47,962 bases of DNA from Candidatus Methanoperedens sp. GTDB taxonomy: Archaea > Halobacteriota > Methanosarcinia > Methanosarcinales > Methanoperedenaceae. Both the position numbers and the translations under genes were made by a program. The stretch spans positions 1 to 47,962 of the forward strand of contig JAPMTX010000146.1 in assembly GCA_026552855.1 (NCBI GenBank), written 5' to 3'. Positions 7,388 to 24,424 of this stretch are shown here, one piece after another. The notes under the pieces were generated by a model, which had not been told where the DNA came from, did no database searches, and was given only the letters and a program-made list of their open reading frames with translations. The first letter of the stretch is position 1. Every line of letters begins with the position of its first letter.

Positions 7388-7460
7388 ATCATCATAATCA
7401 TAAAATATGATGATTATAATTATGTTGATTAAAATGTTTAGATAGCGATAAATTTATATA
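7388..7460 (+). promoter_or_regulatory. Promoter with Fur-like AT repeats, PEF-CTERM gene 1
   Basis: Symmetric ATCATNAT repeats occupy 7388-7422 (ATCATCATAATCATA, then TATGATGATTATAATTATG). They are followed by the core TAGCGATAAATTTATATA at 7443-7460, which recurs almost unchanged before four other surface genes. A 115-base leader follows, containing two copies of GTCAGGACT (7485 and 7543), and the ribosome binding site GGAGG at 7563-7567. Confidence 0.6.
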
Positions 7461-7575
7461 GAGGCTTAATTATTTCTATAATGAGTCAGGACTATCATGG
7501 TGGTCTGAAATCCCTGAGAAAATCGTTGACCATCATTAATCTGTCAGGACTTAGGAGAAATAGGAGGATGGAAAA

Positions 7576-10209: not shown

Positions 10210-11046
10210 ATGACTATAACGGCTGACCAGAAATACAATATTCTTATTTTCTTATTTGTAATGGCATTTTTCACAGGCGCTACTATTCAGTTAAGTGAGG
10301 GTTCGGTACTGGTTGGAGTTATAATGTTCCTGATAGCCCTCGCGCTCACTACAAAAATAAAACTGAGCGGCACATATGTCACAAAAAACTCTAAATTTTT
10401 TATTATACTCGGCGCGTTCATTGTACTTGCAGATCTTGTTTACAATTTAAAAGCGGCAAACCAGCTCGGAACTGTGGATTCCATGACTTTTTTCTTAGGA
10501 ACCTCTTTTGTAGCATACGGTATTAGCCAGTACAAGAAAGCCGGCGAATTCGGTATATACACATCAGGTACGTTTATTATATTATACCTGTTTTTCTACT
10601 CGCTGTTGCCCTCTCTGAACAATGATTTCATTCACTATTTTGATCATTATTTAGTGCTGCTCCCGTCCCTTGCCATCATTAATGCGATTTCAAACATGGA
10701 TATACATGTGGTAGCTACAGAGACCGTACATTTCAAGGGCTTCGAGGACAGTACCGTCGTTATCGGCGGACCCTGCTCAGGTATCTATTCTATGATTCTG
10801 CTTATTGGTCTTATCGTGGGCTATACAAAAATGGAAAGCCTGACAGATAAACGCAAGGTGTCTCTATTAATAGTTCTTGCAATATTTGTGGCGTATATAT
10901 CTAATTTGATAAGGGTTTCCGTGCTATATTATGTCGGCTATTACTATGGAATAGAAAAAATGATGTTTGTCCACGTTTACCTCGGGTGGATCATCTTTAT
11001 AATAATATTCTCCGGGATCATGATGGTTTTGTATAAGACAAAGTGA
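10210..11046 (+). CDS. artC: Archaeosortase C (PEF-CTERM processing)
   Basis: This 278-residue integral membrane transpeptidase-like enzyme has about eight hydrophobic helices. The exosortase/archaeosortase signature is clear: Cys189 in GGPCSGIYSMILL, Arg235 in ISNLIRVSVLYYVG and His255 in MFVHVYLGWIIF, matching the catalytic Cys, Arg and third basic residue of the family. In the family scheme of Haft and colleagues the C type goes with PEF-CTERM substrates, and six proteins with that tail lie within 9 kb, the best support for the assignment. The expected reaction is cleavage near the PEF motif and transfer to a lipid at the outer face of the membrane. Start ATG follows AAAGGGTAATA. It converges on the VanZ/S-layer fusion with only 3 bases between the stops. 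Confidence 0.9.
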   Translation: MTITADQKYNILIFLFVMAFFTGATIQLSEGSVLVGVIMFLIALALTTKIKLSGTYVTKNSKFFIILGAFIVLADLVYNLKAANQLGTVDSMTFFLGTSFVAYGISQYKKAGEFGIYTSGTFIILYLFFYSLLPSLNNDFIHYFDHYLVLLPSLAIINAISNMDIHVVATETVHFKGFEDSTVVIGGPCSGIYSMILLIGLIVGYTKMESLTDKRKVSLLIVLAIFVAYISNLIRVSVLYYVGYYYGIEKMMFVHVYLGWIIFIIIFSGIMMVLYKTK

Positions 11047-11049
11047 AAG

Positions 11050-14000
11050 TTATCGTACTGGGTAGGCAAGATACTCGGCCGAGGATGTCCTTATCTTTAA
11101 GGCGTCATCCAGAATTGCTGTTTCTTTTCCTGGCATAAATTGCAGAGTTTTCGTGTTCCTCAGTGTTATCGTATCGCCAATCACGCTTTCGACCTCGAAC
11201 TCACCAAACATTCTACCGGGTGCGATCTCGAAAGGGATTTCATATTCTTTTATATTCAGCACTACGCTGCTGTTGCTTATAGCCTCCAGCTCTCCTGCGA
11301 GTGCTTTATATTTTAAATCTTCTTTGTGTTCTACCCAGTATTCAAATGCATCGCCTGTGCTTAGAATATTTGATTTCCTGAGATTGCCATCCCTGCCTGT
11401 AAACATCTCATAATATATATCGGGGAAAAATGTCGTATTGGATTTGATTGTTTCGTTCAGTAACTTCTGCTGGTCTTTTTCTGCGGTTTTTCTGATACTG
11501 AGTCTTATTTTATTATCACCTGCTCTCTGGAATGAGACTATGTATCGACCGTCAAAGTCTCCGGTTCCATTGTCATAGACCATTAATTTTTTAGTTGTAA
11601 TCACATTGCTGATATATCCCGCTTTATTTGGGTCCATCAGTTCATAGGTGTTCCCAAGAAACGAAAGAATGCCTGAATGTGCTCTGGCTCTATATACAGC
11701 CTGCCCTTTCTCAACAAAGCCATTATCAGAAAAATACATGCTCAGTTCCTCGTATGAGGTATTGGTCTCCAGATAGAAACCCGGGTAGTTCATGCCTGTG
11801 ATGTTCATCCATCTGCCGTAGTAGATGCTTTGAGGCGTTCCCCTTATCTGGACCCCCGATGCATATGGATACACCGTATCGTTCTGGAGGCTCAATCCTA
11901 CACTGCCGTTGAGAATTACAGTTCTGTTGTTCAGTTCAAACGGGTAAATATTTTTAAATACAAGTTCATCAGAACTTATATTGTCAGTTTCAAAATCTGC
12001 CAGAATAGTGCCCGTCTTCAGTGAAATGATAACATCTGAGTAAAGCTCTATATTAGTTAAATAGACATCATCACCGCTTATAGAATCTATTCTGGCTTTG
12101 AAAAGCGTTGCAGGTAATTTTCCTTTAGTCCTGTACTCATAAATTCCCCCTTTATTTATAAGTCTTGAATCCATGGCACTTCCACCTTTTCTAAGCTCAA
12201 GCATCGCCGAATCACTCTTTGAGCTTATCAGCTTAACCAGAAGGGAATACCCGTCCCCAAAACTCCATGCTTTACCAAGCGTAATCGTCTTGTTTGGATA
12301 CGTCTCTATTATCTTTGATATGTTTGAAGGATCTTTTCCAGCTATCCTGTAGCGAGAGCCCATCAGGTACAGGTCACTGCCGTTTACCCGCGCAATATAA
12401 GTGGCATTGCCAGCTTCTACCATATTATTATTTGAGACCTCAAGCCTGAGTTCTTCACCGGATTTGTTCTGGTTGATATCGTAATAAAAGCCAGGGAAGC
12501 TGAAGCCGTCAATTTTCATCGATCTATTCATCGCAACTGGCGCTCCCCTTGTATCGAAATTGAATTCATATGCTTTTGGAGCGGGTTTTGTTATGTTTTC
12601 TGTTCTAGTCCCGGCGGCATATGGTCTCAATTGTACGTTATCCAGCCAGACTGAGACATTACCGCTGGTGCCGTAGTTACTATATACCTGGAACGCCAGA
12701 GTATTGTTCCCCGATAACATTACTGGCACTTCTACATGCTCCCAGCTGCTATTTTTTCCCCCGATCCTGGATTCCCATACCGCCCGGTCGTCTATAAGCG
12801 CCCGTTTAAGAACATAGTATGAGGTGTTTGAATATTCAGAATCCCGGACATCAAAGGAAAGTACGGCACGGGCGTCTCCATAGGTTGTTAGGTTCTGATA
12901 GATAGTTCCCTGTGAGCCAGCTTTTCCTGTTGTAAAATTGATCTCATAAACTCTTGATGAAGAAATATTATTCGTATAACTTCCTATGGTCTCAGGACTT
13001 GCGGAAAACATCCAGCCCTCATCCGATTCCATGTCCCCGTTAATGAGGACTGGCAATTCTGCAAATCTCACTGAATCCAGACTTGTGTTTACCAGTAGAT
13101 GTACCGATCTATAGGATTGATTGTCTTTTAAAAGCAGGAATTCCAGTTTTGACTTATTTGTCCCTGCAAAAGCGATGGAGGTGGTCAATTGAGGTATGAA
13201 TGTCACGTTATCCAGCCACTTATCGTTATGATTAATGACTATATTCTGCTCTTTCAAAGTTCTCCCCCCGAGCTGCACGCGCAGCGTATAGTTGACAGGT
13301 GCATACTCATAATTTTCCACTCCTACCAGTATTGTAGCTGGTTCCCCGATGTTGACTCCCGGAAGGTAGTTCTCTGCTTTTCCGTTTGCTCCGAGTATAT
13401 AGAGGGTTGTGAATTTTTCAGGCTCTGTGGTAACTTTCGCATATATCAGCATGGCACTGACCAGTAATATCGCGATTATCATGGTTTTTATCAGCATCTT
13501 CTCAAGGGCAGGGTCGTATTCAGGTCCTGTTTCTGCCTCATTGCTCCTGATGGTATGATAGAAAGAAATTATATCCCTGAATGAGAAACCGTATCCTGTT
13601 TCCCCGCACCTCCACCTTTGAAGATATGCCGCTATCAGGAGGAATCCCATTATTGTGGATAGGCTGATCACTATGGAGTTCGGTCTGAAACCCCACGGGG
13701 TGTAGTTAAGGGCAAAGCCGTCAAAAACAAAGATTGCAATACTCAGCCCTATACTCAGCGTGAATCTCTCTATCGGGCCAAGTTCACCCCGTCTGGGGAA
13801 CATTACAGAGATGAAAAGATAGCCTGGCAGGAAGAGAAGCAGAGGCAGTGCAAGGATCATCCGCAGGAATGTCTGATTATAAGGCGGGACCAGTATGAAG
13901 ATTATTGACGCAACTATCAGGATTACAGCGAGTTTTAAATCCAGGATGGCTGCCATGCTTTTTTTAGAGGATATTGATAACCAGTTTCTTGTGTAGATAA

Positions 14001-14454
14001 GTGCCTGAGCTGTCAATATTCCAATACTGTCCGCGAGAAGATCCCATATATTTGTTTTTCTCCCGGGCACGAAAAGCTGGTGGAACTCATCAGTTGCACC
14101 AAACGCGGTGCCTATAATAAATGCGAATATGAATGCGTAATTTTTTAAGGTACGGTTTGAGGAATTCTTCAAGGTACGATAAAGTAAAAACCCAAATATA
14201 GCATATTGAATGATATGTTCTACTTTGTCAGGGTATTCATAGAATATATAAAATGGATATAATAGAAACCTTAAATCAGAGTACTCTAAGAACTCCAGGC
14301 TGCTTCTGAGGCTTTCCAGATGTAGAAACCTCAATATAATCTTTGGGTCACCGGCGCTGGATACTGATGATAGATAGAAGATTGATAGTGCATAGAGGAT
14401 TGTGAGTACTAAAAAAACTTTGAATCTATTACTCATTTTTTCTTGGGGGCACAT
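11050..14454 (-). CDS. VanZ-DUF1616-S-layer domain fusion protein
   Basis: This very large 1134-residue protein has three parts. Residues about 1-160 form a VanZ-like membrane domain (FGATDEFHQLFVPGRKTNIW and DLLADSIGILTAQAL are typical). Residues about 170-350 are a DUF1616-like membrane domain (LALPLLLFLPGYL, then LGPIERFTLSIGLS). Residues about 360-1134 are outside the membrane: a beta domain, a jelly-roll-like segment (about 470-620), and two Methanosarcina-type S-layer domains beginning MKIDGFSFPGFYYDI and MNITGMNYPGFYLET. Such S-layer domains normally stand alone in the main S-layer protein, so here they are tethered to a membrane anchor. A TATA-like GTTATATACC lies about 50 bases upstream. 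The protein probably links S-layer material to the membrane, as inference. Confidence 0.8.
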   Translation of the reverse strand: MCPQEKMSNRFKVFLVLTILYALSIFYLSSVSSAGDPKIILRFLHLESLRSSLEFLEYSDLRFLLYPFYIFYEYPDKVEHIIQYAIFGFLLYRTLKNSSNRTLKNYAFIFAFIIGTAFGATDEFHQLFVPGRKTNIWDLLADSIGILTAQALIYTRNWLSISSKKSMAAILDLKLAVILIVASIIFILVPPYNQTFLRMILALPLLLFLPGYLFISVMFPRRGELGPIERFTLSIGLSIAIFVFDGFALNYTPWGFRPNSIVISLSTIMGFLLIAAYLQRWRCGETGYGFSFRDIISFYHTIRSNEAETGPEYDPALEKMLIKTMIIAILLVSAMLIYAKVTTEPEKFTTLYILGANGKAENYLPGVNIGEPATILVGVENYEYAPVNYTLRVQLGGRTLKEQNIVINHNDKWLDNVTFIPQLTTSIAFAGTNKSKLEFLLLKDNQSYRSVHLLVNTSLDSVRFAELPVLINGDMESDEGWMFSASPETIGSYTNNISSSRVYEINFTTGKAGSQGTIYQNLTTYGDARAVLSFDVRDSEYSNTSYYVLKRALIDDRAVWESRIGGKNSSWEHVEVPVMLSGNNTLAFQVYSNYGTSGNVSVWLDNVQLRPYAAGTRTENITKPAPKAYEFNFDTRGAPVAMNRSMKIDGFSFPGFYYDINQNKSGEELRLEVSNNNMVEAGNATYIARVNGSDLYLMGSRYRIAGKDPSNISKIIETYPNKTITLGKAWSFGDGYSLLVKLISSKSDSAMLELRKGGSAMDSRLINKGGIYEYRTKGKLPATLFKARIDSISGDDVYLTNIELYSDVIISLKTGTILADFETDNISSDELVFKNIYPFELNNRTVILNGSVGLSLQNDTVYPYASGVQIRGTPQSIYYGRWMNITGMNYPGFYLETNTSYEELSMYFSDNGFVEKGQAVYRARAHSGILSFLGNTYELMDPNKAGYISNVITTKKLMVYDNGTGDFDGRYIVSFQRAGDNKIRLSIRKTAEKDQQKLLNETIKSNTTFFPDIYYEMFTGRDGNLRKSNILSTGDAFEYWVEHKEDLKYKALAGELEAISNSSVVLNIKEYEIPFEIAPGRMFGEFEVESVIGDTITLRNTKTLQFMPGKETAILDDALKIRTSSAEYLAYPVR

Positions 14455-14542
14455 TTTATATCAAACCATCGTTTAATTTCCGTTTTAACTAATCAACCTT
14501 TGGTATATAACACCTGCTTAACAGCATATTATACCGATCTTC

Positions 14543-14601
14543 TATGATGATGATGACCATAATAATATTTCCAAATTTAAAATAAACGATAAATTTATAT
14601 A
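14543..14601 (+). promoter_or_regulatory. Promoter with AT repeats, PEF-CTERM gene 2
   Basis: TATGATGATGATGACCATAA (14543-14562) precedes AAACGATAAATTTATATA (14584-14601), the shared core of the surface genes. An 83-base leader leads to the ribosome binding site AGGAGAGGTG at 14667-14676. Confidence 0.6.
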
Positions 14602-14684
14602 GCATATAGTTGTAACATATGTTAAATATCCATGGGATTAGGTGACATAACCAAAGAATCCTGGATAGGAGAGGTGTGACGAAT

Positions 14685-15215
14685 ATGAAAAATAAAATAA
14701 TAACGATAACTGCATTTCTTGCAGTGATGGTAGCAATGACAGGGATTGCGGCGGCTATTCCATACGATGCGTTTATATATAATGCCGCTGGAACTTCAGC
14801 TGCACCGCAACCTGTGAGCCTTAAACCAGGCGATAGTGTTATCCTAAGTTATCGCGGAGAGAATATAATTCCGGCAGCTTTTGGTGTTCCCTTGCCATAT
14901 TCCTCTACAGTTGTAGCATTAGGTGGCGGTGGAGTTGCAAGTGATATAACTGTTACTCTGCCAGTAAGCTTTACTCCAACGGCAGCTACATCCACAGATG
15001 TTGGCGCAATTAATATAGCCTTGAGCTCCTCTGCCCCGGTTGGAGCTTCGTACAGGGTGACTATTAAAGGTGGAGATGAGGCAGTAGATGTAGATTTCGG
15101 TGCTGCATCCAGAAATATATCAAGCATCCCCGAGTTCCCCACAGTAGCCCTGCCGGTAGCTGCAGCAATCGGACTGGTGTTCTTCTTCCAGCACAGGAAG
15201 AGAAAAGAAGAGTAA
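14685..15215 (+). CDS. Small PEF-CTERM surface protein A
   Basis: The protein is 176 residues from the ATG at 14685. A GTG nine bases earlier is possible, but it lies inside the ribosome binding site, and the related gene at 17737 supports the ATG. A signal helix (residues 5-25) is followed by a single beta-rich domain of about 110 residues with no recognised family (PVSLKPGDSVILSYRG; GASYRVTIKGGDEAVDV), then the tail IPEFPTVALPVAAAIGLVF with the basic end QHRKRKEE. It resembles a one-domain cell-surface adhesin or coat protein. Its signal peptide and tail DNA are almost the same as in the genes at 15278 and 17737, although the middle domains differ. Confidence 0.85.
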   Translation: MKNKIITITAFLAVMVAMTGIAAAIPYDAFIYNAAGTSAAPQPVSLKPGDSVILSYRGENIIPAAFGVPLPYSSTVVALGGGGVASDITVTLPVSFTPTAATSTDVGAINIALSSSAPVGASYRVTIKGGDEAVDVDFGAASRNISSIPEFPTVALPVAAAIGLVFFFQHRKRKEE

Positions 15216-15255: not shown

Positions 15256-15277
15256 TCCCTCAGGAGGCATGATAGAT

Positions 15278-15913
15278 ATGAGAAATCTAAAATTAACGAT
15301 CATCGCATTCCTTGCAGTGATGCTAATGATCAGCGTAGCGAGTGCGGGAACATTTGATTTAACAAATTCAAATGTGAACCAATTGGCTGGGATAGATATA
15401 AGAGTGACTACTGATGGAGCCGCAAAGACTATATCCGTTGAACTGGTCAACAATCCGCTATCAAATACACCGCTGGGGATTGATGAGTTCTATTACCAGT
15501 TAGATGGTGTAACCTCTGTTTATAAAATTACTTCTGAGGATGATCCCAGTGGAGTATGGCATACTAACTTCGATGGGGGAACCGCAGATGGCTTTGGACC
15601 TTTTATAAGTTTAAAGAACAATAATCCTGGCGGTACTGGTGGATTAACAGGAAGCCCCATAACATTTACTTTGGCAAATTCGTTCTTGGATTCAAATATA
15701 TTGACGAACGGTCACAACGCAAAATTTGCTGCGCATATAAGATATGATGGAGGTTGCAGTGGATTTGTTTCAGATGGAACGACAACTCCTGGTGATAATA
15801 GCAACTGCAAACCAACAACACAGATTCCCGAATTCCCCACAATCGTCCTGCCAGCAGCAGCAGCAATCGGACTGGTGTTCTTCTTCCAGCACAGGAAGAA
15901 CAAGAAAGAATGA
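15278..15913 (+). CDS. PEF-CTERM surface protein B
   Basis: The protein is 211 residues from the ATG at 15278. The ATG at 15269 sits one base after GGAGG and is too close, while the second ATG is ten bases away. A signal helix ending in VASAG precedes one beta-sandwich-like domain (residues about 25-175; DLTNSNVNQLAGIDIRVT). That domain contains one pair of Cys near its end (GGCSGF and SNCKP), probably a disulfide. The tail is IPEFPTIVLPAAAAIGLVF then QHRKNKKE. It follows protein A without its own TATA core, so it is probably in the same transcription unit, separated by the hairpin at 15227. Confidence 0.85.
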   Translation: MRNLKLTIIAFLAVMLMISVASAGTFDLTNSNVNQLAGIDIRVTTDGAAKTISVELVNNPLSNTPLGIDEFYYQLDGVTSVYKITSEDDPSGVWHTNFDGGTADGFGPFISLKNNNPGGTGGLTGSPITFTLANSFLDSNILTNGHNAKFAAHIRYDGGCSGFVSDGTTTPGDNSNCKPTTQIPEFPTIVLPAAAAIGLVFFFQHRKNKKE

Positions 15914-16006: not shown

Positions 16007-16070
16007 TCTATGATAATCATAAGAATTCTAATCATCTATATTATTTTTGGAAAGCGATAAATATATATAT
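16007..16070 (+). promoter_or_regulatory. Promoter with AT repeats, PEF-CTERM gene 4
   Basis: TCTATGATAATCATAAGAAT and a following TAATCATC (16007-16036) precede AAAGCGATAAATATATATAT (16051-16070), the shared surface-gene core. The leader of 80 bases contains GAGGTGTGA (16118-16126). Confidence 0.6.
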
Positions 16071-16152: not shown

Positions 16153-17034
16153 ATGAGGACTAAAATATTGATAATAGCTGCGCTAATTGGTGTGATGTTA
16201 ATAATCGGGACAGCAAGTGCTGGAAAACCAGAAATCAAAGGGGTGAGCAAGCACTCACAAGATGCAACCGGGGATATACCGATCACAGTGAGCGCAACAG
16301 ATGATCACTCAGTAAAAAGCGTAAAAGCCAATGATCATGAATTAACACATAAGGATGGAGACATCTGGGAGGGGAAAATCCGCCCGGATGAAGAGATCAA
16401 AGATGTGACAATTGAAGCGCATGATGATAAAGAGACCAGTGAAAAACAAATTTACGGTCATGGAGGCTGTCCAAGCCGGGATAGTTATAATTCTCATCCG
16501 TATACGTATGCCTACGCACATGTAGACTTGCTGCAAGATCCTGACGAGAAAAATAAAACGAATTTTTCTCTGCATACCGAAGATAATCATCGACCCGGAA
16601 CTGGAGTTATTGGAATATGTGTATATCCTGAACCTGGTTTTGATCCGAGCAAAGGCGCTTTATTGAAGTTAATATATGACCCTAATTTATGGGAAATAAA
16701 ACACAATGCCGGTTGGGATTATTTTGGCTTTGGAAGACATGGAGGTTTAAACCTCATACCTCTGGATGGTGTTCGTGACATAGTTATCGGGAGCGCGGAT
16801 TATAAACAAAATACCAAATCAGAAAAAATATTGATACACATATTAGACTCAGAAGAATGCACAAAAGATACAGATGAACAAAAAAAGGATATGGACAGAG
16901 ATTCTCCTCAAAATACCTGCTGGAGAAGACCCGAAAAGCTTAACACAATACCCGAGTTCCCTATTATCGCTCTTCCGGTAGTATCGGCACTTGTATTGAT
17001 GTTCATATTCCAAAGAATGAAAAAGGAGGAATAG
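16153..17034 (+). CDS. PEF-CTERM four-cysteine surface protein, copy 1
   Basis: The protein has 293 residues. A signal helix (1-23, ending TASAG) leads to an Ig-like domain (about 25-95; ATGDIPITVSATDDHSVKSV) with a short acidic linker. A second domain (about 100-260) has four cysteines (YGHGGCPSR, GVIGICVYPE, SEECTK, NTCWRRPE), likely two disulfides. The PEF tail is IPEFPIIALPVVSALVLMF. The paralogue at 18326 is about three quarters identical along its whole length. The last codons contain AAGGAGGA, which is the ribosome binding site of the zinc-ribbon gene beginning 3 bases after the stop. No family is recognised for either domain. Confidence 0.87.
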   Translation: MRTKILIIAALIGVMLIIGTASAGKPEIKGVSKHSQDATGDIPITVSATDDHSVKSVKANDHELTHKDGDIWEGKIRPDEEIKDVTIEAHDDKETSEKQIYGHGGCPSRDSYNSHPYTYAYAHVDLLQDPDEKNKTNFSLHTEDNHRPGTGVIGICVYPEPGFDPSKGALLKLIYDPNLWEIKHNAGWDYFGFGRHGGLNLIPLDGVRDIVIGSADYKQNTKSEKILIHILDSEECTKDTDEQKKDMDRDSPQNTCWRRPEKLNTIPEFPIIALPVVSALVLMFIFQRMKKEE

Positions 17035-17037
17035 CTC

Positions 17038-17166
17038 TTGGAAATAGTTGAAGTTAAGTGTAGAAACTGCGGTAAAATTATCCACGTACTAGGAAGTCGC
17101 CTCAGAGAAAAAATGTTCTGTACACTCGGGTGTATGGATTTATATGCTAAAGCATCGAGACCCTGA
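17038..17166 (+). CDS. Mini zinc-ribbon protein, copy 1 (42 aa)
   Basis: This gene is too short for ordinary gene calling. It starts at TTG 17038, seven bases after AAGGAGGA, and codes for 42 residues. Cysteines lie in the pattern KCRNCGKIIHV and then FCTLGCMDLY, that is CxxC, 16 residues, CxxxC, a complete zinc-binding set in a ribbon. It has no signal peptide or membrane helix, so it stays in the cytoplasm although its upstream partner is exported. A copy with the same TTG start, spacing and cysteines follows the paralogous PEF gene (19196). Conservation at the protein level between copies supports a real gene. The function is unknown: a regulator, chaperone or metal sensor are all possible. 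Confidence 0.8.
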   Translation: MEIVEVKCRNCGKIIHVLGSRLREKMFCTLGCMDLYAKASRP

Positions 17167-17190
17167 GAGGTAAAAATTTTCACCTAGCGA

Positions 17191-17250
17191 GGATTGCACG
17201 GTTAATGCGGATTTTCACGGATACTGCTAATCCGTGTCATCGTGCAATCC
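17191..17250. repeat. Nested inverted repeat in the 570-base gene-free stretch
   Basis: Outer arms GGATTGCACG (17191-17200) and CGTGCAATCC (17241-17250) are perfect complements. Inner arms CACGGAT (17216-17222) and ATCCGTG (17230-17236) are also perfect. The stretch 17167-17736 has no gene. Besides this element it holds the CTCTGTG repeats and the promoter of the next gene. The sequence resembles dispersed intergenic repeats of many prokaryotes, from memory only. Confidence 0.65.
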
Positions 17251-17397
17251 GTGCTCTATCCATTTCTCTGCCGGGTACGTATGGATTTTTATGTTGCCTG
17301 ATTGTTTAGGCAAAAGACTATAATCAACTTTATATGCTACAATATCCTGTTGAACTGCGTATGAACCAAAACAGGACACGAAGATTTCTTAAACACT

Positions 17398-17424
17398 CTC
17401 TGTGTTCTCTGTGCTCTCTGTGGC
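17398..17424. repeat. Three CTCTGTG repeats, period 9
   Basis: CTCTGTG occurs at 17398, 17407 and 17416, giving CTCTGTGTT, CTCTGTGCT and CTCTGTGGC. This is a widespread type of short dispersed repeat in environmental prokaryotes. No function is known to me. Confidence 0.55.
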
Positions 17425-17560
17425 TCATTCGGAATTATACTACTGAATTGATTTTTCGGATAGGCTCTAAATAAGTAAAGAAACTAAGGGGTTTATTCAA
17501 CATAGCAACTATTGCCGGTCGCAAATCCAAATAAAAGACGGGATAAATCAGGTATGCCTA

Positions 17561-17650
17561 TAACTATTATGATTATTAATACCGTTCTAACATGGTGATG
17601 ATAATTATTGTTATCATTTTTTAAATTTTTCGAAAGCGATAAATATATAT
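17561..17650 (+). promoter_or_regulatory. Promoter with AT palindrome, PEF-CTERM gene 5
   Basis: TAACTATTATGATTATTAAT (17561-17580) and TGATAATTATTGTTATCA (17599-17616, arms TGATAA/TTATCA) precede GAAAGCGATAAATATATAT (17632-17650). The leader carries GGTAGGAGAGGTGCGACGAA, almost the same as before the gene at 14685. Confidence 0.62.
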
Positions 17651-17736
17651 GGTAGGGAGTCGTACCAACCTATAACATACCCAATGGGATAGATGGAAAC
17701 CTCAATAAAAACCTTGGGTAGGAGAGGTGCGACGAA

Positions 17737-18228
17737 ATGAAAAATAAAATAATAACGATTAATGCAGTTCTTGCAGTGATGGTAGCGATGATAGGAATAG
17801 CGGCTGCAACGACAGCAGACCTAAAGGTAACCAACGATCCCCTGACTCTTGATATTGGTGCTTCAGGAACCCAGGACGTAACACTTACGCTGGATCCAGC
17901 AGGAACCAATGACGTTAAAGCCATTGCAATTGTGGGTTTGCCGCCGGGTATTTCATCAAAAATTGACGGACATTCAGGTACACACTTAATCGGTCCGTGG
18001 ACTTCACCAAAGACCTGGAACGTTGAGTTTACAAACAACGGAGCAGCAAATGGTGAGTACACTATTACTTATGATGTGGTATACACGAATGATCAGCACA
18101 AATTAAGGTTAGCAACAATACAGGCAGGTATTACCACCATCCCCGAGTTCCCCACAGTAGCCCTGCCGGTAGCAGCGGCAATCGGACTGGTGTTCTTCTT
18201 CCAGCACAGGAAGAACAAGAAAGAATAA
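17737..18228 (+). CDS. Small PEF-CTERM surface protein C
   Basis: The protein has 163 residues. The signal helix is MKNKIITINAVLAVMVAMIG, almost the same as in the protein at 14685. One beta-rich domain (residues about 26-125; VTNDPLTLDIGASGTQDVTL) reads like an archaeal Ig-type or CARDB-like fold. The tail is IPEFPTVALPVAAAIGLVF with QHRKNKKE. Ribosome binding site and leader closely match those of the gene at 14685, so the two are related by duplication of ends with different middles. It is followed by the covarying GCTGGG hairpin and the second four-cysteine PEF gene. Confidence 0.85.
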   Translation: MKNKIITINAVLAVMVAMIGIAAATTADLKVTNDPLTLDIGASGTQDVTLTLDPAGTNDVKAIAIVGLPPGISSKIDGHSGTHLIGPWTSPKTWNVEFTNNGAANGEYTITYDVVYTNDQHKLRLATIQAGITTIPEFPTVALPVAAAIGLVFFFQHRKNKKE

Positions 18229-18252
18229 AACCACTGAAATATCAGAAAACAA

Positions 18253-18286
18253 GCTGGGTCCTGACCCAGCATTACCTCTTTTTCTT
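18253..18286 (+). terminator. GCTGGG hairpin terminator after PEF-CTERM gene 5
   Basis: GCTGGGT (18253-18259) pairs with ACCCAGC (18264-18270) over CCTG, followed by CTCTTTTTCTTT. Relative to the hairpin at 15938 the stem has one extra matched pair and altered loop, a compensatory pattern. The four-cysteine gene starts 40 bases later with no visible TATA core, so some read-through is likely. Confidence 0.75.
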
Positions 18287-18325
18287 TCAATGCGAAAAAC
18301 AATGGCTTCGGTAACGAGTGATAAA

Positions 18326-19192
18326 ATGAGGACCGGAATATTGGTAATAGCCGCGCTGATTGGTGTAATGTTGATAATCGGGATAGTAAGTGCTGGGAAA
18401 CCTGAGATCAAAGGGGTGAGTAAACACTCCCCAAATGATGCAACCGGGGACGTACCTATCACCGTGAGCGCAACAGATGATGACTCAGTAAAAAGCGTAA
18501 AAGCCAATGATCATGAATTAACACATAAGGATGGAGATATATGGGAGGGGAAAATTCGTTCAGATGAAGAGATCGATGATGTGAAAATTGAAGCACAAGA
18601 TAATGAAAATAATAATGATGAAGAATTATACGGTCATGGAGGCTGCCCAAGCCGAAATAGTTATGACGACCATAAGTATACATATACATATGCACGTGTA
18701 GATTTGAAGCAAGATCCAGACTTTAAAACGACCTTTTCTTTGCATACGGTAAATAATCCTGGAACTGGAGTTATCGGGATATGTGTATACCCGGATCCTG
18801 GTTTTGATCCTGGCAAAGGTGCTCTACTGAACTTATTATACGACCCTAAGTTGTGGGAAATAAAACACAATGCCGGTTCGGATTATTTTGGCTTTGGAAG
18901 ACATGGAGGTCTAAACCTTATACCTCTCGACGGCAGGGATACATTAATCGGGAGCGCAGATTATAAACAAAGCACCAGTTCAGAAAAAATACTGATGCAC
19001 ATATTAGATCCAGTAGAATGTGCAATAGATAAAGATAAACAAGCAAAGGATCAAGATACAGATTATCCTCAAAATACATGCTGGAGGAGACCTGGTGTAA
19101 CAATGATTCCAGAATTCCCCACCATCGCCTTTCCCATAGCGGCGGCACTTGCAATAATGCTCATATTTCAAAGAAGAAAAAAGGAGGAATAG
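18326..19192 (+). CDS. PEF-CTERM four-cysteine surface protein, copy 2
   Basis: The protein is 288 residues from the ATG at 18326. An upstream ATG at 18290 would add 12 polar residues before the signal helix, and the paralogue at 16153 supports 18326. It has the same order as copy 1: signal helix (ending IVSAG), Ig-like domain, acidic linker, four-cysteine domain (YGHGGCPSR, IGICVYPD, PVECAI, NTCWRRPG), and tail IPEFPTIAFPIAAALAIML. Differences from copy 1 are scattered over the length and mostly conservative, so both copies appear to be under selection. The end again contains AAGGAGGA serving the mini zinc-ribbon gene 3 bases after the stop. Confidence 0.87.
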   Translation: MRTGILVIAALIGVMLIIGIVSAGKPEIKGVSKHSPNDATGDVPITVSATDDDSVKSVKANDHELTHKDGDIWEGKIRSDEEIDDVKIEAQDNENNNDEELYGHGGCPSRNSYDDHKYTYTYARVDLKQDPDFKTTFSLHTVNNPGTGVIGICVYPDPGFDPGKGALLNLLYDPKLWEIKHNAGSDYFGFGRHGGLNLIPLDGRDTLIGSADYKQSTSSEKILMHILDPVECAIDKDKQAKDQDTDYPQNTCWRRPGVTMIPEFPTIAFPIAAALAIMLIFQRRKKEE

Positions 19193-19195
19193 CTC

Positions 19196-19348
19196 TTGCA
19201 ACTAGTTGAAGTCAAATGTAGCAGATGCGGCAAAATTATCCCAGTGCTAAGTGATTACCTCAGAGAAAAAATGTTCTGTACGCTCGGATGTATGGATTTA
19301 TACGCTAAGACAATCCGAAAGACGGAACGCTTTACTGATCTTTTTTAA
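19196..19348 (+). CDS. Mini zinc-ribbon protein, copy 2 (50 aa)
   Basis: TTG start with AAGGAGGA seven bases upstream inside the end of the PEF gene. The 50 residues share VEVKCxxCGKII and REKMFCTLGCMDLYAK with copy 1 and differ in the middle and at the C-terminus, where eight residues are added (TERFTDLF). The CxxC and CxxxC pairs are retained. The stop lies just before the TATA region of the glycan operon. As with copy 1, the link to a surface protein by tight spacing is the only functional clue. Confidence 0.8.
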   Translation: MQLVEVKCSRCGKIIPVLSDYLREKMFCTLGCMDLYAKTIRKTERFTDLF

Positions 19349-19407: not shown

Positions 19408-20370
19408 GTGAATTATATTTATTGGCAGATTCTTGAGATAGGTCTTGTATTCCTTCTTCCTTTTTTCATTATAGTACTCACTACGCCCTACCTCATACGA
19501 AAACTCACCAAAAAAGGTCTGGTGGTTAGGGACTACTATAAGAAAGGAAATAAAATGGTGCCCACGGGCGGCGGGATCGCCATAATGCTTGCAGCCCTTT
19601 TCTCCATGTCCCTAAATTCGCTGTTCTATAAGTTCGATGCAGCGAACTATATCGCATTAAATGTGATCCTGCTGTTTGGTTTGTTCGGCATTCTTGATGA
19701 TATGATCGATATCGGAAGACCGGCAAAGCTTCTCCTTATGTACTACAGCTCATACCCGTTAATGCAGTATGCATCTCATTCAAATGTGCTGTTCCCCTTA
19801 ATCGGTCATGTTGAATTCGGGATTATTTACAGCCAGCTTATCGTCCCCACTTTTGTTCTTGTGGCAGCCAATCTTGTGAACATGCATTCAGGCTTTAACG
19901 GCATGTCATCCGGGCTTTCACTCATAGTTCTGGTCTCCCTGCTGATCAAATCCGTGATTGAGGGCTCGATCGATAATATCATAGCTATCGTTGCCATCAC
20001 AGGTGCCACCCTCGGCTTCCATTTATTTGAACGCTACCCCTCCCGCATATTCTGGGGGAACATAGGCTCGCTGACCGTAGGCTCAGCCATCGGCGTGCTG
20101 ATAGTCATGCAGGGATTCATAGTTAGCGGGTTTATCATGCTTATTCCGCATACCATTAATTTCCTGATGTATGTCTACTGGAGAATCAGGAAGTATCCTC
20201 AGGTGAAGTTTGGAAAGATAAGAGAGGACGGCACTATCGAGGCACCAAATCCCCTCACCCTGAAGTGGGTGCTTCCTTTTTACGGGAGAGCTACCGAGAG
20301 GCAGGCAACCTATGCTATGTACGCGGTTACGGCTGTATTCTGTATTATCGGGATATTAATTCCAGGATAG
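19408..20370 (+). CDS. aglH: UDP-GlcNAc:dolichyl-phosphate GlcNAc-1-phosphate transferase (GT4/MraY family)
   Basis: This 320-residue protein has about ten transmembrane helices and transfers a sugar-1-phosphate from a UDP-sugar to the polyprenyl or dolichyl phosphate carrier, the first committed step of archaeal lipid-linked glycan synthesis. Conserved family motifs are visible: [16 protein letters not shown] (the Asp-Asp magnesium site), [17 protein letters not shown] (Asn and nucleotide-binding loop) and [13 protein letters not shown]. The start is GTG. Four sugar-modifying genes follow in the same direction and tight spacing, so it opens the operon. By analogy with Methanococcus AglH the substrate would be UDP-GlcNAc. 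The diacetamido sugar made downstream would then be added later. Confidence 0.85.
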
Positions 20371-20455: not shown

Positions 20456-21037
20456 GTGATGATAGGCTATCCGACCGCTGATATTTTGAGGAAAGCAGCC
20501 TCATCCGGAATAAACATAGAGGACATGGATTTCAGGGGCGCCGTTATCGGGGATGATGCTGTGATCAGATCAAATTCAATTATATACACAAATGTCGAAA
20601 CCGGCAATAACCTGCGTACCGGGCACAATGCTCTGGTACGCGAAGATACTATCATCGGGGATGATGTGCTTATCGGTACCAATACTATTATAGACGGACG
20701 CACAGTGATCGGAAATAACATCAGCATCCAGGGGAACGTGTATATACCGCTGAATGTTACAATTGAGGATAATGTTTTCATAGGTCCGTGTGCCGTGCTT
20801 ACAAATGATAAATACCCTGTAAGAAAGAAATCAGACCTGAAAGGTCCTGTTCTGCGCAAAGGTGCATCTATTGGCGCAAATGCGACCTTACTGCCGGGCG
20901 TTGAGATAGGTGAGGGCGCGATGGTGGCTGCAGGCGCGCTTGTGACAAAGGACGTACCTCCGTGGAAGCTGGCGATGGGGGCGCCTGCAAGAATAGTGGA
21001 TTTACCTGACGACTTAAAGATAACAAACAGGCTTTAA
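20456..21037 (+). CDS. Hexapeptide-repeat N-acetyltransferase (WbpD/WlbB type)
   Basis: This left-handed beta-helix acyltransferase has repeated hexapeptides such as [26 protein letters not shown] and ASIGANATL, and the C-terminal APARIVDLP typical of sugar N-acetyltransferases. With the three genes that follow it would acetylate the 3-amino group of a UDP-3-amino-uronic acid using acetyl-CoA. The visible start is GTG 20456, but the same frame continues upstream to about 20399 with family-like sequence ([18 protein letters not shown]). The best ribosome binding site (GGATAGGTGG) serves an ATG at 20385 that is one base out of frame. A single missing base near 20388-20400 is the likely explanation. 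Confidence 0.82.
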
Positions 21038-21063
21038 TATTAAAACACCTTTAGATAGCAGTC

Positions 21064-22155
21064 ATGATACCCATAGCAAAACCTCATATCGGGGAAGATG
21101 AGAAAAATGCCGTGATGAAAGTCCTTGAATCCGGGGTTATAGCAGAGGGGACAAAAGTCCTGGAATTTGAAAAAGCGTTTGCACGATCCGCAGGTGCAAA
21201 GTATTCCATTGCGGTCAATTCCGGTACTGCAGCCTTGCACGTGGCTATGCTGGCGCACGGGATAGGTGGCGGTGATGAAGTGATAACTTCGCCTTTTACT
21301 TTTATAGCTACTGCAAACTCGGTATTGTTCACCGGAGCAAAACCTGTATTTGCGGATATTGAAGAGGATACATTCAACATCGATCCTGATAAAATTCTTG
21401 AAAAAATAACTCCCGGAACAAAAGCTGTTCTCCCTGTTCACCTTTTTGGTCACCCGGCAAACATGAAAGCCATAAGTGAAATAGCAGAGGATCATAACCT
21501 TATTATCATCGAGGATGCGTGCCAGGCGCATGCAGCAAAGTTCAATGGGAGCTGTGTGGGGACATTTGGGACAGGTGCTTTCAGTTTTTACCCGACAAAA
21601 AATATGACAACAGGTGAAGGGGGAATGATCACAACCGATGATCCGCAAATTTACGAACATGCTAAATTATTGAAATCCCACGGGTCAAAGCAAAGATATC
21701 TGCACGAGATACTGGGATATAATTTCAGAATGACGGACATAGCTGCTGCGATCGGTATAGAACAGCTTAAAAAGCTGGGAATGTTCACTAACGCACGCCA
21801 GGAAAACGCTGCTTACTTAAATTCGGGATTGAAAGATATTTCAGGAATTGTAATTCCATGCATACGCCAGGATTGTGAACATGTATTCCATCAGTATACA
21901 ATCCGGGTAACTGAGGATTGCAAAGTGGACAGGGATGCGCTTATTAAGGTATTAAATGAAAACAGCATCGGAACAGGAATCTACTACCCTCTGCCTGTTC
22001 ATAAACAGCCGCTTTACAGGGAATTGGGTTACACTGACAGCCTGCCGGTCGCAGAAAAAATGTCCCGGGAGGTGGTCTCGCTGCCAGTCCATCCTTCCGT
22101 CACAGAGACTGATCTTGATTTCATAATCAAAACAATAAGAGGTATATGCGAATAA
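21064..22155 (+). CDS. DegT/DnrJ/EryC1 sugar aminotransferase (WbpE type)
   Basis: This 363-residue PLP enzyme of fold type I makes an amino sugar from a 3-keto UDP-sugar, using glutamate. The PLP lysine is Lys179 in YPTKNMTTGEGGM. Other landmarks are SGTAALHVAMLAHGI (phosphate cup), IIEDACQAHAAKF (Asp binding the pyridine nitrogen) and GIYYPLPVHKQPLY near the C-terminus, typical of the WbpE/ArnB family. Overlap of 10 bases with the next gene indicates coupling. The substrate is inferred from the neighbours: UDP-3-keto-GlcNAcA to UDP-GlcNAc(3NH2)A. Confidence 0.9.
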   Translation: MIPIAKPHIGEDEKNAVMKVLESGVIAEGTKVLEFEKAFARSAGAKYSIAVNSGTAALHVAMLAHGIGGGDEVITSPFTFIATANSVLFTGAKPVFADIEEDTFNIDPDKILEKITPGTKAVLPVHLFGHPANMKAISEIAEDHNLIIIEDACQAHAAKFNGSCVGTFGTGAFSFYPTKNMTTGEGGMITTDDPQIYEHAKLLKSHGSKQRYLHEILGYNFRMTDIAAAIGIEQLKKLGMFTNARQENAAYLNSGLKDISGIVIPCIRQDCEHVFHQYTIRVTEDCKVDRDALIKVLNENSIGTGIYYPLPVHKQPLYRELGYTDSLPVAEKMSREVVSLPVHPSVTETDLDFIIKTIRGICE

Positions 22156-23087
22156 AAGTAGGTGTTATTGGTACTGGTGCGATGGGTCAGCACCATGTGA
22201 GGATATATAGCGAATTTCCTGATGTAGAACTTGTCGGGATCGCTGACATAGATTCAGTGCGGGTAAATGAGCAGGCAGCACGATATAAAACAAAAGCATT
22301 TACAGATTACAGGGAATTACTAAAGCAGGACTTAGACGCAGTGAGTATCGTCGTTCCCACTATGATGCACAAAGAGGTCGCTCTTGCAGCCATTGAGGCT
22401 GGCGTGAACGTTCTCATCGAAAAACCGATAGCTGATACGCTGGAGAGCGCCGCGGAAATAATCGAATCCGCAAGCAGTTCAGGTCTGAAATTGATGATAG
22501 GGCACATAGAGCGCTTCAATCCTGCCGTCATGAAACTGAAAGAAATAATCGATTCAGGTGCGCTCGGGAAAGTTGTCTCGATATCTACGCGCAGGGTTGG
22601 ACCCTACAATCCAAGGATCAGGGATGTGGGCGTTATTATGGATATAGGGGTGCATGACGTCGATGTTATATCGTACTTATACGGTATGAAAGTGAGCGAA
22701 GTCTATGCTGTGGCAGGCGCTGATATCCATTCCTTCGAAGACCATGCTGCTATTATACTTCGCTTCGGTCACGAATACTCAGGTATCGTTGAGACAAACT
22801 GGCTGACCCCCCATAAAATCCGGAAGCTGACAGCGATCGGTCTCAAGGGCGTAGCATATCTGGATTATATAGACCAGACTGTTGAACTCCACGATGAAGG
22901 ATGGATACGAAAGGCAAAAGTAGAGAAGAGCGAACCTCTGAGGAACGAACTGCAATATTTTATACGCTGCATTTCTAAGAACGAACAACCATTTCCTTCA
23001 GGAGAAGATGGAAAATATGCTCTTGAGGTTGCTACGGCTTCTATTGAATCCTATCGGTACGACAGGGCGGTCAAGGTGAGGAAATGA
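22146..23087 (+). CDS. Gfo/Idh/MocA family UDP-sugar 3-dehydrogenase (WbpB type)
   Basis: This 313-residue NAD-dependent oxidoreductase has the Rossmann start VGVIGTGAMGQHHVRIY and the conserved EKP motif in VLIEKPIADTL. It also has the substrate segment RRVGPYNPRIRDVGV and the conserved Asp/His pair MDIGVHDVDV. It is expected to oxidise carbon 3 of a UDP-N-acetyl-hexosaminuronic acid to the 3-keto form, which the aminotransferase upstream uses. It overlaps its upstream neighbour by 10 bases and its downstream neighbour by four (ATGA), so the three are one translational unit. Confidence 0.9.
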   Translation: MRIKVGVIGTGAMGQHHVRIYSEFPDVELVGIADIDSVRVNEQAARYKTKAFTDYRELLKQDLDAVSIVVPTMMHKEVALAAIEAGVNVLIEKPIADTLESAAEIIESASSSGLKLMIGHIERFNPAVMKLKEIIDSGALGKVVSISTRRVGPYNPRIRDVGVIMDIGVHDVDVISYLYGMKVSEVYAVAGADIHSFEDHAAIILRFGHEYSGIVETNWLTPHKIRKLTAIGLKGVAYLDYIDQTVELHDEGWIRKAKVEKSEPLRNELQYFIRCISKNEQPFPSGEDGKYALEVATASIESYRYDRAVKVRK

Positions 23088-24424
23088 AGATATTTGGATT
23101 AAAGGAAGAAGAGATACTGAAGTTGTTTGAAAGATCGGAAATCACATTTGCTGTATATGGACTTGGGAAAATGGGTCTCCCCTTAGCAGCGGTTATAGCT
23201 GATAAGGGAGGTAAAGTAATAGGCGTGGATATCAATAAGAAGGTCGTGGAGAGCATAAACAGAGGGATATGCCATGTAAGAGGTGAACCCGGGCTGGAAG
23301 AGATGGTAGCCCGGCATGTTAAAGATGGCAGAATGACTGCAACAAACGACCTTGTTAAAGCGGCAGAAGATTCGGATGTTAAGATCATTCTTGTTCCCAC
23401 ATTCCTGGACTCGATGAACAACCCGGACCTTTCCATTATCAAATCGGTGAGCAGGAGCATTTCAAGAGGGCTCAAGCACGGGGATTTTGTGATTACCGAG
23501 AGTACCCTGCCCCCGCGCACTACCAGCGATATCATATTACCAACACTGCTCGAATCCGGTTTGAGCCGTGGGGATTTCGGACTTGCACATTGTCCTGAGC
23601 GGACAATGTCCGGAAGAGCTATACAGGATATCACAGGCGCATATCCGAAAATCGTGGGGGGCATAGATGAAAAAAGTACAAAGACCGCTGCAGCTATCTA
23701 TCTGGGAATAAATTCAAAGGGAGTAATCAAGGTATCGGATGCCACCACAGCCGAAGCTGTGAAGGTCTTTGAGGGCCTGTATCGCGATGTGAATATTGCA
23801 CTTGCTAACGAGCTTGCAGTCATCTGCCATGAACTCGGTATTGATGCGGTCGAGACGTTTAACACAGCGAATACACAGCCATATTCTCACCTGCATATGC
23901 CCGGATGCGGAGTTGGCGGGCATTGCATACCTGTGTACCCTTATTTTATCACAAGAACGGTCAAAAGCCCGACCAGGCTACTTTCTCTGTCACGCCAGAT
24001 CAACGATGGCATGGCTGGATACACGGTATCGCTGGTCGAAAAGGGACTTAAGGAGGCTGGCGCAGGTATAGCAAATTCAAACGTGCTTATACTGGGTGTC
24101 GCATACCGTGGCGATGTAGAAGAGACAAGATGCAGTCCTGCAATTCCGATAATTGATATTTTAAAAAGAAAAGGAGCAAAAGTCTTTGCTTATGATCCCA
24201 TGCTCGGCGACAGGGTCGAGGATTTCGGTGCAAATCCGGGGTCGTTTGAAGATGTATCTGATATCGATGCTATTGTTATTACTTCGGATTTTAAGGAGTT
24301 TAAAACTATTGACTGGGGAAGGCTTAATTTGAGACATAAAGTACTGGTGGACGGCAGACAGGTGGTTGACCCTGAAGATATACGAAGAACCGGTTTCATC
24401 TTTTATGGGATAGGTGTAAAGTGA
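23084..24424 (+). CDS. UDP-N-acetylhexosamine 6-dehydrogenase (WbpA/WecC type)
   Basis: This 446-residue enzyme of the UDP-glucose/UDP-mannose dehydrogenase family oxidises C6 of a UDP-HexNAc twice to give the uronic acid. Domains in order: an NAD Rossmann domain (YGLGKMGLPLAAVIADKG), a central domain with the conserved DATTAEAVKVFEG, and a C-terminal UDP-binding domain. The catalytic nucleophile is Cys281 in GVGGHCIPVYPYF. The product feeds WbpB, WbpE and WbpD, giving UDP-2,3-diacetamido-2,3-dideoxy-uronic acid, a sugar known in archaeal N-glycans. It ends the operon and converges on the MinD-like gene. Confidence 0.9.
   Translation: MKIFGLKEEEILKLFERSEITFAVYGLGKMGLPLAAVIADKGGKVIGVDINKKVVESINRGICHVRGEPGLEEMVARHVKDGRMTATNDLVKAAEDSDVKIILVPTFLDSMNNPDLSIIKSVSRSISRGLKHGDFVITESTLPPRTTSDIILPTLLESGLSRGDFGLAHCPERTMSGRAIQDITGAYPKIVGGIDEKSTKTAAAIYLGINSKGVIKVSDATTAEAVKVFEGLYRDVNIALANELAVICHELGIDAVETFNTANTQPYSHLHMPGCGVGGHCIPVYPYFITRTVKSPTRLLSLSRQINDGMAGYTVSLVEKGLKEAGAGIANSNVLILGVAYRGDVEETRCSPAIPIIDILKRKGAKVFAYDPMLGDRVEDFGANPGSFEDVSDIDAIVITSDFKEFKTIDWGRLNLRHKVLVDGRQVVDPEDIRRTGFIFYGIGVK

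Follow-up and report, generated by a model that had tools for sequence, protein, structure and literature searches.

Part of a family of small predicted zinc-ribbon genes shares a promoter element with PEF-CTERM surface genes in Methanoperedens

The window analysed here is a stretch of 47,962 nucleotides (nt) from Candidatus Methanoperedens sp. (assembly GCA_026552855.1, contig JAPMTX010000146.1). It holds two copies of a gene pair in which a PEF-CTERM surface gene is followed by a very small gene for a predicted zinc-ribbon protein, hereafter the ribbon, and it is a Methanoperedens archaeosortase C (ArtC)/PEF-CTERM/glycan locus. The ribbon appears to be an uncatalogued, FCS-like zinc ribbon of about 45 residues, its zinc binding being predicted solely from its cysteines, and is preferentially encoded in loci that combine archaeosortase C, a family 4 glycosyltransferase (GT4) and PEF-CTERM genes. 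About a third of the Methanoperedens ribbon genes that do not lie behind a PEF-CTERM gene carry the PEF-CTERM promoter element, and this promoter sharing, newly found here, is the strongest link of the ribbon to the PEF-CTERM system. We consider it quite probable that the ribbon belongs functionally to the PEF-CTERM surface programme; whether its role there is regulatory is an even call. Our preferred reading, judged from the sequences to be about as probable as not, is a trans-acting cytoplasmic zinc adaptor or regulator that would be co-expressed with the PEF-CTERM surface system.

Copy 1 of the pair, on the forward strand like copy 2, consists of a 293-residue surface protein with four cysteines (16153..17034) and a 42-residue ribbon (17038..17166). 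In copy 2, a surface protein of 288 residues counted from the ATG at 18326 (18326..19192; an alternative longer frame from 18290 has the same end) precedes a 50-residue ribbon (19196..19348). Both surface proteins score above the 23-bit cut-off of the PEF-CTERM domain model TIGR03024 (24.5 and 35.9 bits), and both surface genes end with AAGGAGGA. In copy 1 the stop codon TAG and the three bases CTC lead to the TTG that opens the ribbon frame, and the spacing is the same in copy 2, where the ribbon also starts with TTG. These open reading frames agree with an initial annotation made from the letters of the window, which had described each copy as a surface gene, three bases and a TTG-started ribbon gene of 42 or 50 residues. 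The two surface proteins share 77% identity and retain all four cysteines, the ribbons share 74%, and the pairs form a tandem duplication offset by approximately 2.16 kb. The N-terminus of the surface proteins looks by eye like an export signal, and the ribbon is predicted to be cytoplasmic. Between the pairs, positions 17191-17475 contain dispersed repeats with many copies in the genome (41 matches across the whole region, mostly here).

A substitution-rate comparison between the copies gave a ratio of non-synonymous to synonymous change (dN/dS) of 0.24 for the surface pair and 0.38 for the ribbon pair, the latter over 41 codons only. Pooled over 12 ribbon pairs from other genomes, which were picked as close relatives and include one without synonymous change, the ratio was 0.18. 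Both the surface gene and the ribbon gene are under purifying selection, as had been proposed initially, and on conservation together with dN/dS we rejected a chance open reading frame or a leader peptide as the nature of the small frame.

A promoter element common to PEF-CTERM and ribbon genes

Alignment of the PEF promoters of the window revealed a common element. Its core is a 26-bp imperfect dyad, ATGATnATAAT-N4-ATTATnATCAT, located about 15 bp upstream of a box that resembles the B recognition element and TATA box (BRE/TATA-like). The element lies on the forward strand before surface copy 1 (16010..16067) and before the PEF gene at 17737 (17592..17649), the first gene of the copy-2 unit. 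A diverged form precedes the PEF gene at 14676 (14531..14694, used for model building), and a weaker one (7406..7461) precedes a surface gene at 7576-8982 whose PEF tail scores under the cut-off. When the 3.4-Mb genome was searched with the pattern TTTTTNNAAAGCGATAAATATATA, allowing up to three mismatches, five matches were obtained, with none for the reversed control; four lie ahead of PEF-CTERM or PEF-like genes and the fifth (C56) has no clear target. The dyad is perfect at two PEF promoters, one in the same genome (C126:18865) and one in genome G025.

A promoter model trained on four PEF promoters of the window genome was applied to the DNA upstream of 467 genes, all from loci of other Methanoperedenaceae genomes; these loci were chosen for holding ribbons or GT4, and the rates are not genome-wide. 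With a hit defined as 6 bits or more, the model hit 10 of the 13 genes whose tail pattern is PEF-like and 11 of the 34 ribbons classed as lacking a PEF gene in front; it hit none of the six ribbons that have one and two of 414 other genes, one of which (locus L164) resembles a gene for an exported protein. The difference between ribbons and other genes corresponds to p=6e-12, and a control model built from four other promoters hit 0/13 PEF-like genes, 1/34 ribbons and 1/414 others. Two of the 13 PEF-like genes are false pattern matches (L092, L094), and the one other gene missed follows another PEF gene in its unit, which corrects the first count to 10/11; the ribbon of G033 does have a PEF gene in front, truncated where the contig begins, which corrects the second to 11/33. 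Two of the 42 ribbons from other Methanoperedenaceae genomes fell outside the test, G028:C60 at a contig end and the truncated G024:C16. The promoter-bearing ribbons are those of G016 and G002, each with a decayed PEF gene in front, two close relatives in G007 and G028, a tandem pair in G009, a group from G030, G006, G024 and G004, and the ribbon of G023.

The dyad itself gave 21 hits in 573,611 nt, compared with 2, 0, 1, 0 and 0 in Markov controls, where the 21 count overlapping pairs and include the training promoters of the window genome. When applied to 427,244 nt from outside Methanoperedenaceae, the promoter model returned 11 weak hits; that five of these lie 53-78 nt ahead of a ribbon is no more than suggestive.

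The ribbon family and its PEF-CTERM partners

The window genome encodes four ribbons, three directly behind a PEF-CTERM gene and one not. A profile built from them found 46 matches in 22 of 34 Methanoperedenaceae genomes, covering two of the three genera. Across the order Methanosarcinales, 95 of 185 genomes match the profile at E<=0.001; 71 of these contain what we call a strong ribbon, with a best E of 1.8e-8 or lower, and the other 24 (best E 3e-6 or weaker) may encode other FCS-like proteins. In a sample of the phylum, 49 of 392 genomes match, all except two weak ones within the order, and the ribbon family is nearly confined to one archaeal order, in which both methane oxidizers and methane producers carry it.

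In an alignment of 45 members the four cysteines are the sole invariant residues. The C-x2-C-x16-C-x3-C spacing is found in all 45 Methanoperedenaceae members and in 40 of 41 others, the exception having 15 residues in place of 16 and one truncated row (G024:C16) being excluded from the count. The retention of every cysteine that had been noted between the window copies holds for the surface pair and, as a four-cysteine pattern, for the ribbons family-wide. The TTG start was also said to be retained; this is true of the two window copies and is not a family trait, as the 45 members have 24 ATG, 13 TTG and five GTG starts and three lack a start at the expected position. The C-termini vary in length and sequence. 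A family tree of the ribbons (86 rows, 46 columns) has long branches and 35 of 83 inner branches open; on it the label PEF/GT4 applies to 26 of 86 rows and changes 19 times, a raw count from which we drew no conclusion, and G028:C60 is labelled PEF with its upstream gene off the contig.

None of the members examined individually against Pfam and NCBIfam scored above any curated cut-off. The window ribbons reach 17.8 and 14.3 bits with zf-FCS (PF06467), for which the gathering score is 22.4, and ten further members also fall under it, six with a sub-cut-off match and four with no match at E<=0.01. At E<=1 there is a match to FCS/MYM-like profiles in 37 of the 45 members, the best at 6.7e-5, and the nearest curated families are zf-FCS and, in parts, other CxxC ribbons. 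The zf-FCS domain is a treble-clef fold with zinc. The ribbon resembles it in cysteine order and in an aromatic-Cys motif, with weak profile matches, but is a free-standing protein of about 45 residues in one archaeal order, and the 12 members compared individually score below the gathering score. LysW-type carriers have a conserved C-terminal glutamate motif, unlike the variable ribbon C-termini, and only two of the 45 members match the LysW model at E<=0.1, the better of them at 0.0051. The TRASH domain serves metal trafficking or sensing and has a cysteine spacing of its own; no family so named is among the first 25 of the 32 families matched. A search of PDB sequences with the ribbon profile returned nothing under E 0.046, and the closest MYM-type chain was 2das at E 0.12. 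Among viral contigs there were 101 pattern matches for the ribbon with none confirmed as a relative, and a mobile or viral origin was rejected because no relative was found there.

The closest functional likeness, compared by description, may be to the zinc-finger micro-proteins HVO_2753 and HVO_0758 of Haloferax, the deletion of which is reported to alter swarming, biofilm and transcripts (PMC10716476, PMC11241148). As their abstracts describe them, the Haloferax C(P)XCG proteins are, like the ribbon, archaeal, shorter than 70 residues, furnished with four cysteines and present in many copies per genome; they contain two C(P)XCG motifs, whereas all 86 ribbons counted have C-x3-C in the second place. 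These abstracts mention no tie to a sorting-signal promoter.

The initial annotation would have been refuted had no other genome carried the gene pair, and it passes this check: among 87 ribbon loci examined there are 12 PEF-to-ribbon pairs, in nine genomes of two families, with gaps of 3-68 nt and, in many cases, GT4 as the next gene. Within Methanoperedenaceae, 10 of 46 ribbons lie directly behind a PEF gene and 36 were not seen there (for G028:C60 the contig ends too early to tell). Outside this family the number is two of 41 examined loci, a subset of the 63 strong matches chosen by score and genus coverage. In these pairing counts a PEF gene is defined by its tail pattern and not by the curated profile; an 84-residue non-PEF frame flagged by the pattern 321 nt before the G004:C32 ribbon was excluded. 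Two more ribbons, in G016 and G002, lie behind a decayed PEF tail. With 13 PEF genes, a 70-nt zone and two strands of 3.4 Mb, chance pairing is expected at about 1e-4 per ribbon; in the window genome three of four ribbons are paired, two of them through the tandem duplication.

The partners differ. When 30 residues were trimmed from each end of the 12 partner proteins, their bodies gave five links at E<=1e-3 (the two window copies, G001-G003, G025-G033, G022-G033 and G076-G090), and seven of the 12 contain no cysteine. Relatives of the C-terminal half of the surface protein of the window pairs (in G013, G007 and twice in G028) occur on contigs without a listed ribbon.

Archaeosortase C, GT4 and the surface locus

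The artC gene (10210..11046, forward strand; TIGR03762, 265 bits, E 7.5e-79) lies about 5 kb upstream of the pairs. It is followed on the reverse strand by a gene for a membrane protein with matches to VanZ, DUF1616 and S-layer domains (11050..14454) and then by five forward-strand PEF-CTERM or PEF-like genes, the two copies included. The other three encode a PEF-CTERM protein of 179 residues (14676..15215, TIGR03024 28.5 bits), a PEF-CTERM-like protein of 214 residues (15269..15913, 18.3 bits, under the cut-off) and, between the copies, a PEF-CTERM protein of 163 residues (17737..18228, 28.6 bits). Directly after the second ribbon comes the ArtC-associated GT4 gene (PF00953, Glycos_transf_4; 19408..20370, forward strand), recognised by its Pfam match and its co-occurrence with artC. 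Family matches then identify sugar genes on the same strand (20456..24424) for a hexapeptide transferase, a DegT aminotransferase, a GFO/IDH/MocA oxidoreductase and a UDP-glucose/GDP-mannose dehydrogenase. In the genome as a whole, PEF-CTERM is matched 13 times at E<=0.1 and 11 times above the cut-off, and two archaeosortase C genes besides the artC of the window pass theirs. The genome also has two GT4-matching genes (E<=1e-5), each directly behind a ribbon with gaps of 59 and 2 nt.

ArtC is reported to recognise PEF-CTERM and to be present in the anaerobic methanotrophic (ANME) groups 2a and 2d (PMC5244752), and its loss is reported for Methanimicrococcus blatticola (PMC9723798). Among the titles and abstracts listed by our searches on archaeosortases and PEF-CTERM, none describes a zinc ribbon, GT4 partner or shared PEF promoter element, and none of those listed on archaeosortases, the exosortase/glycosyltransferase family 4 and TRASH in archaea describes such a small protein. 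Passages of a paper on Methanoperedens plasmids (PMC9674854) name no zinc ribbon or zinc finger.

Across the 185 genomes, with artC counted where it scores above its cut-off, artC and GT4 occur together in 57, artC only in five, GT4 only in ten and neither in 113 (p=4e-31). The ribbon also co-occurs with artC (p=1.4e-5) and with GT4 (p=1.7e-6); all of these p values ignore kinship between genomes. Of the 69 GT4 loci in the order, 31, from three families, have a strong ribbon no more than 5 kb away, after exclusion of a 78-residue fragment (G159:C224) from 70 GT4 matches. By group, the counts are 9/16 loci in Methanoperedens, 3/5 in family f3, 19/20 in genus g23 and 0/28 in all others, and the g23 neighbourhood is probably a single event. 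In Methanoperedens, GT4 is downstream on the same strand for all ten ribbons that have one within 5 kb, giving the order PEF, ribbon, GT4; in G042 and G044 of f3 the order is ribbon, PEF-CTERM, GT4, and in g23 the ribbon is divergent from GT4. We re-read 20 GT4 loci that apparently lack a ribbon and found no hidden ribbon of this kind, with one unrelated frame of 87 residues fitting the loose pattern. In four of the seven such loci from Methanoperedens a PEF gene lies directly before GT4, so that the ribbon is an optional part of the locus.

In the artA-pssA-pssD neighbourhood, the neighbour of a sorting-enzyme gene is reported to have proved part of a lipid-anchoring pathway (PMC7157517). There a lipid enzyme stands beside ArtA, and here GT4 and a zinc ribbon accompany ArtC. 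The co-occurrence of GT4 with artC suggests that GT4 plays for ArtC the part of PssA for ArtA, providing the glycolipid or glycan used in PEF-CTERM anchoring.

Some ribbons stand apart from intact PEF genes. Five g19 genomes without an artC match at E<=1e-10 (G091, G092, G093, G098, G099) keep an intact ribbon; just before it (loci L150, L160, L159, L149, L148) is the remnant of a PEF tail broken by stops or frameshifts. In G090, also of g19 and with artC present, the PEF tail beside the ribbon is intact. The intact ribbons beside broken tails in genomes without an artC match suggest that the function of the ribbon outlives ArtC. In G004, G006 and G024 a PEF gene is next to GT4 without a ribbon there, yet unlinked ribbons in these genomes carry the promoter element. 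Decayed tails and unlinked ribbons with the element together imply that the ribbon would act in trans, if it acts with PEF proteins at all. A strict tie to ArtC was rejected on ribbon genomes without artC and on ribbons beside decayed PEF tails, and the ribbon is not an obligate partner of ArtC or of any single surface protein. In differing contexts the unlinked ribbons of L076, L078, L084, L085, L072 and L083 share some 115 nt on the upstream side and, downstream, a conserved A+T-rich sequence of about 120 nt, as if the ribbon and its flanks were copied as a short cassette; the downstream part might be an RNA element. In this comparison the two G009 flanks consist in part of one and the same DNA, and their mutual matches are uninformative.

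Candidate roles of the ribbon

In the mechanism that we propose, each ribbon of the window would be the last gene of a PEF-CTERM transcription unit, and its translation would probably be coupled to that of the surface gene, whose coding end would serve as the ribosome-binding site of the ribbon. The ribbon would thereby be produced in step with the PEF-CTERM surface proteins, act in trans and set the expression or the cytoplasmic steps of the surface programme, such as glycan supply through GT4, or sorting. In a more specific version, which we regard as improbable, the ribbon would be a trans-acting feedback component of an archaeosortase C regulon. Co-expressed with PEF-CTERM cargo from the shared dyad promoter, it would bind a dyad-binding factor or the GT4/sorting machinery and match cargo synthesis to anchoring capacity, as a surface-assembly checkpoint.

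A number of observations weigh against an adaptor or regulator of the PEF-CTERM system. With regard to the promoter, 22 of the 33 ribbons not behind a PEF gene fall under 6 bits, and the 11 that carry the element reduce to two behind decayed PEF genes and only four groups. Seven of the 21 dyad hits lie elsewhere than the 14 at PEF or ribbon promoters, and in the window genome the C119 ribbon and the C193 PEF gene have no promoter hit. With regard to context, ribbons persist beside decayed PEF tails, and as named by eye the ribbon precedes an ACT-domain/homoserine dehydrogenase pair in six loci (L061, L062, L063, L065, L067, L074) and a methionine-synthase-like gene in two (L057, L082). No artC was found in 31 of the 71 genomes with a strong ribbon, and ribbon and artC do not go together in g19, where among 11 genomes tested three have both, seven the ribbon only and one artC only. 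The net charge of the ribbon is near neutral (median +1 in Methanoperedenaceae, -2 outside) and offers no argument for nucleic-acid binding.

The ribbon might instead be a small modulating subunit of a surface-glycan enzyme on the cytoplasmic side, with the GT4 phospho-sugar transferase or a sugar-nucleotide enzyme as the likeliest candidate. GT4 is its most regular neighbour in Methanoperedens, invariably downstream on the same strand where one is near, the next gene in g23 and g24 is often a sugar epimerase by eye, and there is a precedent in MtrR of M. mazei, a protein of 49 residues that is reported to tune the Mtr complex (PMC13370731). This is possible though rather unlikely, as this GT4 went unmatched in 30 of the 71 ribbon genomes, 26 of the 67 GT4 genomes have no strong ribbon, and re-reading of the 20 GT4 loci uncovered none. 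We give somewhat less credence to a general small zinc protein without a special surface role, an easily copied gene that landed behind strong promoters or ribosome-binding sites, those of PEF-CTERM units included. The varied gene contexts, the flanks common to unlinked copies with different neighbours, and the scatter of PEF/GT4-linked copies in the tree (poorly resolved and with some labels set by hand) would fit such a protein; preservation of the ribbon-GT4 neighbourhood in three families, and the PEF promoter element before ribbons without a PEF gene in front, argue against it.

Two further explanations are much less probable than the adaptor or regulator that we favour. A TRASH/FCS-like sensor or chaperone for metal, reporting zinc or redox state to the surface programme, draws on the similarity to FCS/MYM-like profiles and the four invariant cysteines. 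Reading the neighbours by eye, with family searches for a minority of them, brought up no conspicuous gene for metal transport or resistance, and we consider this role very improbable. The initial annotation had seen the ribbon as locked to an exported disulfide protein, as its regulator or chaperone. Tight coupling in both copies, both of them conserved, speaks for a dedicated cytoplasmic chaperone or regulator of the adjacent four-cysteine surface protein. However, the partners are mostly unrelated and the majority are free of cysteine, so that a dedicated-partner mechanism is unsupported; most Methanoperedenaceae ribbons were not seen behind a PEF gene, and ribbons outlast the decay of the partner. 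The disulfide-protein chaperone was rejected on this partner diversity, and dedicated partnership in general is highly doubtful. The regulatory half of the earlier proposal is compatible with the shared promoter element, and it is retained in the trans-acting adaptor or regulator preferred here.

ArtC and PEF-CTERM proteins shape the surface of methane-cycling archaea, Methanoperedens included, and we found little on their partners or control. Three candidates emerge from the analysis: the family of small zinc proteins, the GT4 gene whose occurrence follows that of artC, and the promoter dyad that the cargo genes have in common with part of the small-protein genes. The dyad offers a direct route to its transcription factor, and the artA-pssA case, as reported, indicates that neighbour evidence of this kind can uncover anchor chemistry. 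The ribbon itself points to an unstudied regulator or helper of the archaeal cell coat.

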